Source of the DNA: Anaerolineales bacterium
Lineage (GTDB): Bacteria > Chloroflexota > Anaerolineae > Anaerolineales > UBA11579
Assembly: GCA_025808555.1 (NCBI GenBank)
Contig: CP075526.1
Coordinates: 1,755,064-1,819,063 of the forward strand
Direction of reading: 5' to 3'
DNA: 64,000 nt
The notes below the pieces were generated by a model. It did no database searches, had not been told where the DNA came from, and worked only from the letters and a program-made list of their open reading frames with translations. A program made the translations under genes and the position numbers. Positions 14,525 through 19,147 of the stretch are shown here, in pieces. Positions within the stretch are counted from its first letter, which is position 1. Every line of letters starts with the position of its first letter.

Positions 14525-16277
<1,753 letters not shown>

Positions 16278-16326
16278 GGTCTAGCCGCCTAGTGCGCGTG
16301 TAATGCTAGTGAAGCCTAAAGATCTT

Positions 16327-16384
16327 GCGCATCGAGAGGAGCTAGGCTCCACTGACGAGTACCCGGGGTCCGGCCATACAGATA
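16327..16384 (+). pseudogene. Decayed duplicate of the eno 3' end
   Basis: CTTGCGCATCGAGAGGAGCT at 16328-16347 and the bases up to about 16384 align with eno 16211-16268 with one deletion and scattered substitutions, including the GACGAGTAC / GCCGAGTAC match. It is not translatable in the eno frame. It looks like a junction scar left by recombination or integration at the 3' end of eno. Confidence 0.65.
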
Positions 16385-16418
16385 TGAAACAAATTCTAGT
16401 TAGGAGAAGATACATAAA

Positions 16419-17087
16419 ATGACCATAACTTATTACTCTGTGAGGAGAGGGGGGGCAGAATCTAGACTCGAAGATAACCTGCTTGATGAGTTGCAGGATG
16501 CCTTTCCAGAGCGCAAATATAAGCAGTGGATGGGGGGAGCTTTTAATATTGGGGGTTCCTTCCCTGATATCGTCATAGTCTCCTATCGGCCCGAATTAAC
16601 TTGGCTTCAAGAAGAGGTTGCAGGGGCAGAGTTTATTCTTGCGTACTTACATAGAGTTAGTTCAGCGCGATTTGAGACTATACAAAAGAGGACGCTTATT
16701 GAAACGCGTCATTTGCGATTAAGTATTGACAAACTGATTGATGCAAAAGTTATACGAAAGAAAAAACAGGCCTATCATCTTGATAAAGCTTGGAGAGATA
16801 TTTTGCCTAGAATTATTACGATTGAGGCTAAAATTTCGAAATGGCGGATAGCAGTTGCTCAGGCCATGAATAACACTCTGTTTGCTCACTATTCTTATGT
16901 GGCAGTGCCACTAGATTTAGCAAAAAGAATAAGTAATGAGAGTGCATTCAACCAAAAAGGGATTGGTTTAATTGGCGTGGCTCAAGGCGCAGATTCATGC
17001 TTTGTAAAAAATGCGGTATCGAAGTATCCTTCTTTGTGGTCTTATTACTATTCGCTGGCTTCAACAATTGCCACTAACGGTGGCTAA
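16419..17087 (+). CDS. Predicted PD-(D/E)XK nuclease with inserted winged helix
   Basis: I do not recognise a named family. The 222-residue protein shows the core of a PD-(D/E)XK nuclease: Glu in an N-terminal helix (residues 14-18), PDIVIV with Asp50, then IEAK with Glu136 and Lys138, then Gln149 in a following helix (VAQAMNNTLFAHYSYVAVP) and a GIGLI strand. Between Asp50 and Glu136 lies a segment (about 70-122) that looks like a winged helix-turn-helix (TIQKRTLIETRHLRLSIDKL, then a beta hairpin). This suggests a DNA endonuclease with its own DNA-binding domain. Codon use is A+T-rich, unlike neighbours. It is the first gene of a three-gene operon, 2 nt before the kinase. Confidence 0.65.
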   Translation: MTITYYSVRRGGAESRLEDNLLDELQDAFPERKYKQWMGGAFNIGGSFPDIVIVSYRPELTWLQEEVAGAEFILAYLHRVSSARFETIQKRTLIETRHLRLSIDKLIDAKVIRKKKQAYHLDKAWRDILPRIITIEAKISKWRIAVAQAMNNTLFAHYSYVAVPLDLAKRISNESAFNQKGIGLIGVAQGADSCFVKNAVSKYPSLWSYYYSLASTIATNGG

Positions 17088-17089
17088 AA

Positions 17090-17935
17090 ATGGCCTTCCT
17101 TTTTCCGATTGAACGTGCTAGGAATTTTTTTCCAGATCTCGAATTTGTTGCTCCCTTGACGCCAAGTCAACAAAAGGCAGCGTTCCTGGTTCGCGACTCC
17201 GAAGGCCTAGAGCTCTGCCTAAAAATCATTTCTCCAGACTATCAGGCCGAGAGGCTTCAAAGAGAGTTGATTGCTCTTCAGAAGTTAGATCACCCCAATA
17301 TTGTTCGTTTTAGAGAGTATGCCCTAACTATCAAGTCAGGAGTTACTCTTAATTATATGATTGAAGAGTATATAAAGGGAAACGATCTAACCGATCTCTT
17401 GGGGCAAGAACATATATGGGATGCCAACAGGGCTACTAAATTCTTTGCCGAACTTTTTCGCGGCCTGGCCGCACTCTACCACGAAGGTATAGTTCATAGG
17501 GACTTGAAACCTTCAAACATACGAGTAAGAGAAAATACTTCCCCTGTAATTATTGATTTCGGTCTTGCTCGACACTTGAACTTGACTGACCTGACAAGAA
17601 CCGAAGAGGGAGCTGGTTTTGGTACACCAAAGTATTTTGCTCCTGAACAGTTTGTGGGTACCAAGTATGATATTGACCATAGAACTGACTTGTATGCGAC
17701 GGGGTTGTTGTTGTATGAAGCTCTAACTGGTGTCCATCCTTATTGGAAAGCTGATATGTCAATGAGCGACCTTAGAGAGGCAGCTCTCCGTTCAGATGAA
17801 TTTCTTAAAAATCCGGCATTTTTGACTCTTCCTAACAATATTACTTTGTTGGTATCCAGATTGCTGGCCAAGGAACGAGTAAACAGGCCAAGTAATGCCA
17901 ATTTAGCAGCAAGAATTATTTTAAAAGGCAGGTAA
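17090..17935 (+). CDS. Soluble Hanks-type Ser/Thr protein kinase
   Basis: The 281-residue protein is a kinase domain alone, without membrane helix or sensor domain. Catalytic features are present: Lys45 (ELCLKII), the helix-C Glu59, HRDLKPSN (136-143), DFG (156-158) and APE (184-186). The glycine-rich loop is degenerate: the expected GxGxxG region reads APLTPSQQKAAFLV without glycines, so ATP binding may be unusual, but all other motifs suggest activity. It probably phosphorylates a partner in the same operon. It starts 2 nt after the nuclease-like gene and ends 6 nt before the third gene. Base composition is A+T-rich, in keeping with horizontal transfer. Confidence 0.9.
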   Translation: MAFLFPIERARNFFPDLEFVAPLTPSQQKAAFLVRDSEGLELCLKIISPDYQAERLQRELIALQKLDHPNIVRFREYALTIKSGVTLNYMIEEYIKGNDLTDLLGQEHIWDANRATKFFAELFRGLAALYHEGIVHRDLKPSNIRVRENTSPVIIDFGLARHLNLTDLTRTEEGAGFGTPKYFAPEQFVGTKYDIDHRTDLYATGLLLYEALTGVHPYWKADMSMSDLREAALRSDEFLKNPAFLTLPNNITLLVSRLLAKERVNRPSNANLAARIILKGR

Positions 17936-17941
17936 GAATTT

Positions 17942-19147
17942 ATGAAGAGGGGTCCGTGGCATCAGCTCGGTAATCAAGGTCAAACAATTGCGCGTGAGCA
18001 TTTGCAGAACGGTATTGGAGTTGGCGTTGTAATTAGCGAAAAGGACTTGCCTTTTAATAGTGCCAAGGAATATTCAACTACTTTTAAAGAGTTGAACGCC
18101 GATGTCCTTGTTGATCATCAATTTTACAATTCAAGTTTTCGTCACAAGAATTTCGACACATATCCGGAAAAGGAATTCCGTGTAACTTTATCTAACATGG
18201 CAAATTTGTCCAGGATTGGTTTGTCTGGTTTGTCTAAAGCCTTGGAAGAAAACCTGAGACAGCTCTCTGTAACTGGTGTCATTGCTCCGGCAATGAAATA
18301 TCAGGCTGGCAGGAATGAGATTGTCGACGTTAACGCAAAACTTTTTTCCGCCGCAAAAGCAGTCGGTGATTCAATGGGACTTCCTACCTTTGTTACCGTG
18401 ACTGTTGACAGATCATCTTTGGATAGCTTTTCTGCGGTCGAGAGGATACTGTCTGATGTGACCTCTTTGAGTGGGGATGGATGGTATTTCTCAATTGAGT
18501 TTGGCGAAAGGAGAATTCCCGCTTCTTCTGAGAAGGTAAAAATGCTTTGTCGAGCAGGTCTTAAGCTTGCAATGACAGGGAAGCCTGTCATGCATGCATT
18601 TGCTGGCCCCATGTCACTGCTCTCTTATGGATTCGGCGCAACTGCAGCTGCAATTGGCCATAGTCATAATCTATGGCAGTTTTCAAACGAAAGGTGGCAG
18701 ATACTTTCGGCGCCACGAAAAGGCCCCAAAAAACCTCTCAGGAGGTTGTTCTCAAGTAACCTTTGGGGCACACTAGTTTATCCAAACGAAATTGTACGGA
18801 TGAATGCTAAGCTGCGCGCTGAAGCTCTTACATCGACGGAATACTCGCCTTCACTTGAAAACTTGGATGCAGTTTGGAAAAAAGGGCAGGCTGATAGACA
18901 CTTAGTTGCCTCTATTTGTCGAGAAATTGAAACTATTTCCAGGCTGGGAGGTGTATCAGAAGCAGCAAAGTATGCAATTAATAAACTCGCACATGCGGAA
19001 TCTTTGTACGGACGTATCAAGAATACCGTTGGTACTCTACGCGATAGTTCAAACGCTTACCATTCAAACTGGAAGGAGGCCTTGGAGAATCTTCTAATCG
19101 AGGGTAAAGACGATTTAGATTACCTGGAGATGATAGCTAGCGATTGA
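17942..19147 (+). CDS. Unrecognised protein, possible alpha/beta barrel
   Basis: I do not recognise this 401-residue protein. Its first ~250 residues alternate short hydrophobic strands with helices (GVGVVIS 26-32, ADVLVDHQFY 53-62, TGVIAPAMKY 111-120, PTFVTVTVD 148-156, WYFSIEFGE 181-189, KPVMHAFAG 214-222), followed by a glycine-rich GFGATAAAIGHSH (230-242). That rhythm fits a TIM-barrel-like fold, and the late Gly-rich strand could bind a phosphate or a base. A distant relation to tRNA-guanine transglycosylase-like barrels is possible but unproven. The last ~100 residues are helical. It has no signal peptide or membrane span. It is the last gene of the A+T-rich operon with the nuclease-like protein and kinase. 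Confidence 0.6.
   Translation: MKRGPWHQLGNQGQTIAREHLQNGIGVGVVISEKDLPFNSAKEYSTTFKELNADVLVDHQFYNSSFRHKNFDTYPEKEFRVTLSNMANLSRIGLSGLSKALEENLRQLSVTGVIAPAMKYQAGRNEIVDVNAKLFSAAKAVGDSMGLPTFVTVTVDRSSLDSFSAVERILSDVTSLSGDGWYFSIEFGERRIPASSEKVKMLCRAGLKLAMTGKPVMHAFAGPMSLLSYGFGATAAAIGHSHNLWQFSNERWQILSAPRKGPKKPLRRLFSSNLWGTLVYPNEIVRMNAKLRAEALTSTEYSPSLENLDAVWKKGQADRHLVASICREIETISRLGGVSEAAKYAINKLAHAESLYGRIKNTVGTLRDSSNAYHSNWKEALENLLIEGKDDLDYLEMIASD

Follow-up and report, generated by a model that had tools for sequence, protein, structure and literature searches.

Within a 64-kb stretch (hereafter, the window) of the 2.24-Mb single-contig genome of an Anaerolineales bacterium, three adjacent genes on the forward strand encode a predicted PD-(D/E)XK nuclease (protein 1), a soluble Hanks-type serine/threonine kinase (protein 2) and a barrel protein with a fold like that of tRNA-guanine transglycosylases (TGTs; protein 3). 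We propose, with a probability of roughly 0.55, that this trio is a horizontally mobile immune cassette acting against phages or plasmids, in which the barrel would receive a signal, the kinase would relay it and the nuclease would be the effector. The evidence well supports the three genes as a cassette inherited together across phyla rather than a chance cluster. Their assignment to defence follows from the trio often adjoining defence genes, which is an association.

To find relatives, we searched contigs with protein 3. The single sequence returned none, whereas an alignment did. One relative with 46% identity lies in a genome of the same genus; others lie on plasmids of Natribaculum breve and Bradyrhizobium, on a Polaromonas plasmid, and in Elusimicrobia, Verrucomicrobiota, Thermoanaerobaculia, Planctomycetota and Chitinispirillaceae. 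When kinase and nuclease models were run beside the barrel, all three genes were found together at 21 analysed loci, namely the window and 20 others, in Chloroflexota, Elusimicrobia, Planctomycetota, Acidobacteriota, haloarchaea and on a proteobacterial plasmid. The initial annotation had made recurrence in other genomes a check on its idea of a defence system, and the trio does recur, across phyla and in both domains. Its distribution is sporadic, at about 1–5% of the genomes sampled. In whole-genome searches the barrel turned up in 3 of 400 genomes from the phylum of the window, in 5 of 247 and 8 of 246 from two other phyla, and in 11 of 199 from a fourth (five of these strong), the three non-window phyla being inferred from the centre genomes Natribaculum, Planctomycetota and Thermoanaerobaculia. 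The sample of 246 genomes held the nuclease family in 15, among them all eight barrel genomes. The nuclease lay within a few kilobases of the barrel in 8/8 of these, and the kinase as well in 7/8. The incomplete cases of the main family lie at contig ends (L009, L010 and L013 are cut, and the L063 kinase is a fragment). On the Bradyrhizobium plasmid (L005, 6512–8867) the trio has decayed, with frameshifts in all three genes. The phage genomes searched gave no match. One IMG/VR locus (L014) was considered as phage carriage; its scores are identical to those of a Chloroflexota chromosomal locus (L018), so we took the two as the same sequence and as no evidence for phage carriage.

The three families have also diverged together. 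Patristic distances correlate at 0.81 for kinase and barrel, 0.72 for barrel and nuclease, and 0.67 for kinase and nuclease, values reached in 0 of 2000 permutations each. In a tree with 23 other kinases from the same genomes, the 23 trio kinases group as a single clade with 100% support; the comparison sample is biased, as it consists of the strongest PF00069 matches of those genomes. The window copy groups with an Elusimicrobia copy and a copy from the Planctomycetota phylum, apart from L019, the other copy from Chloroflexota, which clusters with L062 and L067. This grouping across phyla indicates that the three genes pass from phylum to phylum together. Gene order varies, with the nuclease placed after the barrel or on the opposite strand at L012, L061, L063, L064, L069 and L071, which is what one would expect if function, rather than one frozen operon, keeps the partners together.

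Recognised defence genes stand close to the trio at nine loci, an association and not a measured enrichment over matched random genes. The initial annotation had named recurrence inside defence islands as a check, and this association supports its idea of a defence system. Type IIG restriction(-methylase) genes occur near the trio at L004 and L013, and type I restriction genes at L012, L060 and L069 (L012 and L013 by sequence reading). A CBASS (cyclic oligonucleotide-based antiphage signaling system) cyclase and a phospholipase are found at L063, an Argonaute at L009 and a SAVED-domain gene at L005. At L062 (4020–14490), the trio is flanked by PglX (PglXI) on one side and by BrxH/PglZ genes on the other; all share one strand, and the trio looks like a module added to a bacteriophage exclusion (BREX) operon. 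Among the loci tested, only L062 was found to lie among BREX genes; the window trio has housekeeping flanks and no BREX operon around it. No dpdB, dpdC or preQ0 gene was recognised among the neighbours tested, a subset of all neighbours. Other neighbours that were scanned one by one gave weak matches or none. Two further neighbours were recorded. At L004 (9198–9884), a metallophosphoesterase-like gene, possibly a phosphatase partner, comes immediately after the haloarchaeal trio and in the same orientation. At L013 (8249–8848), in a Chitinispirillaceae genome (G489) with three barrel loci, a 200-residue gene that may have an E-x-K motif precedes the kinase.

Protein 2 carries a Pfam Pkinase domain (PF00069, E = 2.5e-39) with K45, HRD at 136–138 and DFG at 156–158, and its domain and motif residues class it as a Hanks-type serine/threonine kinase with intact catalytic motifs. 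The K, E, HRD, N and DFG residues are kept in 22/22 to 23/23 members of the trio kinase family. The best PADLOC kinase match is PD-T4-6 (E = 2.5e-47), confined to the kinase domain.

For protein 1, Pfam gave nothing but a sub-threshold winged helix (HTH_34, E = 0.11), and Foldseek alone gave mainly winged-helix matches, every one with E > 0.01. The AlphaFold model (predicted local distance difference test, pLDDT, 82.3; predicted TM-score, pTM, 0.77) was confident in two of five models and of low confidence in three, and shows the element order alpha-beta-beta-[winged helix]-beta-alpha-beta. In VIA-align, the leading matches were 3dnx (SPO1766, PD-(D/E)XK-like; Z 12.7, 127 residues, 3.0 Å) and the type IIS enzyme PaqCI (8em1; Z 11.6, 132 residues, 3.1 Å), followed by many MarR/HxlR/ArsR-type winged helices aligned through the insert (Z 10–11). 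Residues D50, E136, K138, Q148, A149 and G183 are invariant in 23 of 23 family members, and E14 is kept in 22 of 23. The modelled core fold and the catalytic residues are both those of a PD-(D/E)XK enzyme, and nuclease activity is predicted. Both enzymatic assignments of the initial annotation, a PD-(D/E)XK nuclease and a soluble Hanks kinase, have thus held. The structural models add two features that it had not described, a winged helix apparently inserted in the nuclease and a barrel that looks transglycosylase-like.

Protein 3, which had been called barrel-like and unplaceable, does form a TIM (triosephosphate isomerase) barrel with C-terminal helices in its AlphaFold model (pLDDT 84.6, pTM 0.87), and none of the models in Pfam, NCBIfam or PADLOC gave it a credible match. 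We put its weak Pfam and NCBIfam matches (phage minor capsid, nitrile hydratase accessory, GldL) down to chance. Its 29 relatives matched no Pfam, PADLOC or PHROGs family above chance, and the core barrel family is itself unnamed in these three databases. Membership of ordinary housekeeping families, which would have counted against a defence role, is not what we observed, since protein 3 has no family model in these 29 relatives and the kinases form their dedicated clade. The top Foldseek matches of the barrel were TGTs (E 4e-6 to 4e-5). The best 50 VIA matches were also all TGTs (Z 18.0–19.6, about 300 residues), although abundant TGT entries in the PDB may crowd out other barrels. A Foldseek search of viral models returned nothing beyond weak matches to assorted TIM barrels. 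The TGT family PF01702 was absent among the profile matches of the 29 family members, and a profile-profile comparison with Chloroflexota TGTs gave E 0.28; the link between the barrel and TGTs therefore rests on structure. By matching strand motifs by eye, not by superposing coordinates, D58 falls at D102 of TGT at the end of strand 3, and the TGT nucleophile D280 (Zymomonas mobilis numbering) falls at A237, which is non-acidic in relatives, so protein 3 probably lacks the TGT nucleophile. No conserved cysteine corresponding to the zinc site CxCxxC...H was found among 28 family members. Conservation is highest at S32, D58 and P116 (28/28 each) and G239 (27/27), followed by Q8 (27/28), Q60 (23/28) and N243 (22/27). 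In the model, S32, D58, Q60 and N243 lie where strands end, on the face that usually carries the active site of a TIM barrel. As modelled, protein 3 is a TGT fold that has neither the sequence profile nor the zinc site of TGTs. An ordinary TGT is encoded elsewhere in the same genome.

The layout and composition of the window copy agree with the first reading of this DNA, which had noted three tightly packed genes with codon use unlike their neighbours. The coordinates in Table 1 and gaps of 2 and 6 nt, in gene order, confirm the packing. The G+C content of the trio is 42.9%, against 61.5% for the whole window, and the lowest-G+C 1-kb segments of the 64 kb fall inside it. G+C at third codon positions is 0.37–0.40 in the trio and 0.75–0.89 in nine neighbouring genes; codon adaptation to these neighbours is 0.20–0.22 for the trio and 0.58–0.76 for the neighbours themselves. 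The flanks are ordinary chromosomal genes, named by sequence reading as mfd, pth, pyrG and eno upstream and rpsD and recA downstream.

Table 1 Features of the three-gene cassette and its insertion site (window coordinates).
Feature	Position	Strand	Description
Enolase gene (eno) 3' end	16209-16277	+	Last 69 nt; duplicated segment, apparent insertion hotspot mark; from self-comparison of the window
Partial degenerate duplicate of eno 3' end	16320-16367	+	Attachment-site-like scar directly ahead of the cassette; 49 columns, 82%
Putative ribosome-binding site AGGAG ahead of gene 1	16402-16406	+	Read off the sequence
Gene 1	16419-17087	+	222 aa; PD-(D/E)XK nuclease fold; predicted catalytic E14, D50, E136, K138, Q148
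Predicted winged-helix domain inserted in gene 1	16626-16781	+	About residues 70-121, between core strands 2 and 3; from secondary structure and structural matches
Gene 2	17090-17935	+	281 aa; soluble Hanks-type Ser/Thr kinase; catalytic motifs intact
Gene 3	17942-19147	+	401 aa; TIM barrel of TGT-like fold; conserved S32, D58, Q60, P116, G239, N243

The eno-tail duplicate matched the eno end with E = 1.6e-7 in a search of the 64-kb window, where the second-best match had E = 0.15. When we searched eight same-genus genomes for eno, the gene was retrieved in seven, one of which (G002) also has a remnant of the eno tail downstream (72 bp, 83%). Sister genomes (L076–L082), by sequence reading, hold differing cargo after eno, A+T-rich in several cases, including an AAA ATPase, HicAB-like pairs and zinc-ribbon or DnaJ-like open reading frames (ORFs). 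Given these duplicates and the differing cargo, the eno 3' end looks like a variable cargo hotspot in the genus, of which the trio would be one occupant. The final eno codons themselves vary among genomes of the genus. The trio copy of G002 (L006) is not at eno but at a different site from the window copy; therefore, these two same-genus copies do not occupy one ancestral site. Composition, the eno scar and the cargo point to a recent acquisition of the window copy at such a hotspot, which we list in support of the immune cassette. A prophage origin was dropped because neither an integrase nor a phage gene was seen next to the window copy.

In the mechanism that we propose, the TGT-like barrel would bind or process a signal that arises during infection, be it a nucleobase, a nucleotide or a nucleic acid. 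The kinase would relay the state of the barrel by phosphorylating the barrel, the nuclease or both, and either release or restraint of the nuclease could result. The PD-(D/E)XK nuclease, which in several clades includes the winged helix, would then cut DNA, whether that of the invader or, in an abortive response, that of the host. A more specific version is tentative and falls short of even odds. In it, the trio would be a previously undescribed immune system spanning both domains and based on nucleobase sensing and phospho-signalling: the TGT-like barrel, its catalysis turned to a new use, would detect a nucleobase or nucleotide cue of infection, and the dedicated Hanks kinase would respond by activating a winged-helix restriction-type nuclease.

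Several observations weigh against the immune cassette as we describe it. At more than half of the trio loci, none of the neighbours tested is a recognised defence gene. The nucleases of L012 and L017 have no winged-helix insert, so the insert is not essential and the nuclease core is the constant part. At a divergent locus (L066), a barrel and a nuclease occur with no kinase detected. Distant barrel cousins in the Acidobacteriota phylum (L072–L075) stand alone, with neither kinase nor nuclease, and those of L073 and L075 adjoin fatty-acid beta-oxidation genes; such stand-alone cousins may reflect an earlier function of the barrel outside immunity. Their ORFs are about 405–525 residues long and carry the motif LVDPKTxxxQFEGYMSM. 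The neighbours of these cousins are also what would favour a metabolic or housekeeping cluster of some non-immune role, for example nucleobase salvage. We consider this very unlikely for the trio itself in view of its sporadic distribution, plasmid carriage, recent transfer, defence neighbours and constant nuclease partner.

The features of proteins 1 and 3 allow two further explanations. The trio could be a regulatory or toxin-antitoxin-like module controlling neighbouring defence operons, its winged-helix nuclease-fold protein acting on promoters or as a kinase-controlled toxin. The winged helix of protein 1 and the position of the L062 trio between PglX and BrxH genes would suit such a role, and kinase-controlled immune regulators and kinase toxins do exist (CapKS, PMC13373217; KKP, PMC11341870). 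This explanation is weakened because the winged helix is dispensable while the catalytic residues of the nuclease are conserved; moreover, no defence operon that it could regulate lies downstream of the window copy, and the cassette has no phosphatase or other antitoxin-like partner. We hold it to be unlikely, if worth weighing. A Dpd-like restriction-modification system, which we judge quite improbable, would instead have the TGT-like protein put a modified base such as 7-deazaguanine into host DNA, the nuclease cut unmodified DNA and the kinase regulate. The closest solved folds of the barrel are all transglycosylases, D58 takes the D102 position by motif matching, and in Dpd the DNA-modifying core consists of TGT homologues, which also occur in BREX-related capture systems (PMC12839542). 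The probable loss of the nucleophile (A237 at the D280-matched position, non-acidic in relatives) and the missing zinc site nevertheless weaken the case for base insertion; there is also no Pfam TGT match in the 29 relatives and no DpdB- or DpdC-like partner gene in the cassette.

We therefore retain the immune cassette as the preferred explanation. If it is correct, the trio would be a compact immune system common to bacteria and archaea, and would connect a restriction-type nuclease, by way of a TGT-like fold, with protein phosphorylation, whose part in prokaryotic immunity is still poorly understood. Its small size (2.7 kb) makes testing in a laboratory host straightforward. The initial annotation could name no known defence family with this set of three, and we likewise met no description of a defence trio of kinase, nuclease and TGT/TIM-barrel in the open-licence papers searched, although it may have been named earlier elsewhere.

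Known systems share parts of this arrangement. The nuclease core resembles 3dnx and PaqCI in fold, but the window protein has a winged helix between core strands 2 and 3 and constant kinase and barrel partners. PglW of type 2 BREX and a subset of DndF couple a nuclease with an S/T/Y kinase (PMC12839542). They resemble the trio in combining a PD-(D/E)XK-type nuclease (NERD) with an active Ser/Thr kinase in a defence setting, and PglW also has winged helices. PglW, however, is encoded within a BREX operon as a single protein of 1400–1600 residues that includes pseudokinase and ATPase-like domains, whereas the trio consists of three separate genes including a TGT-like barrel, usually with no BREX. 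Compared with TGTs (PF01702), protein 3 shares the TIM-barrel fold and the aspartate ending strand 3 but differs in sequence profile and zinc cysteines, and probably at the position of D280. In Dpd (DpdA) and BREX-Related Capture, too, a defence locus combines nucleases with a protein of TGT fold. DpdA, however, modifies DNA as a transglycosylase and has many partner genes, whereas the trio barrel, with no zinc site and probably no nucleophile, has a kinase and one nuclease as its constant partners. Kinase signalling in anti-phage immunity is also found in KKP, PD-T4-6 and CapK-CapS, and PADLOC models of PD-T4-6 score the trio kinase. CapK-CapS consists of a kinase and a repressor (PMC13373217) and KKP of kinases and a phosphatase (PMC11341870). 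We set both aside as the identity of the trio, since the kinase is the sole common part; the window cassette has one kinase and no phosphatase and so does not match the KKP set. Unlike these kinase systems, the trio has no second kinase, phosphatase or STAS protein, and it brings its kinase together with a nuclease and a TGT-like barrel.

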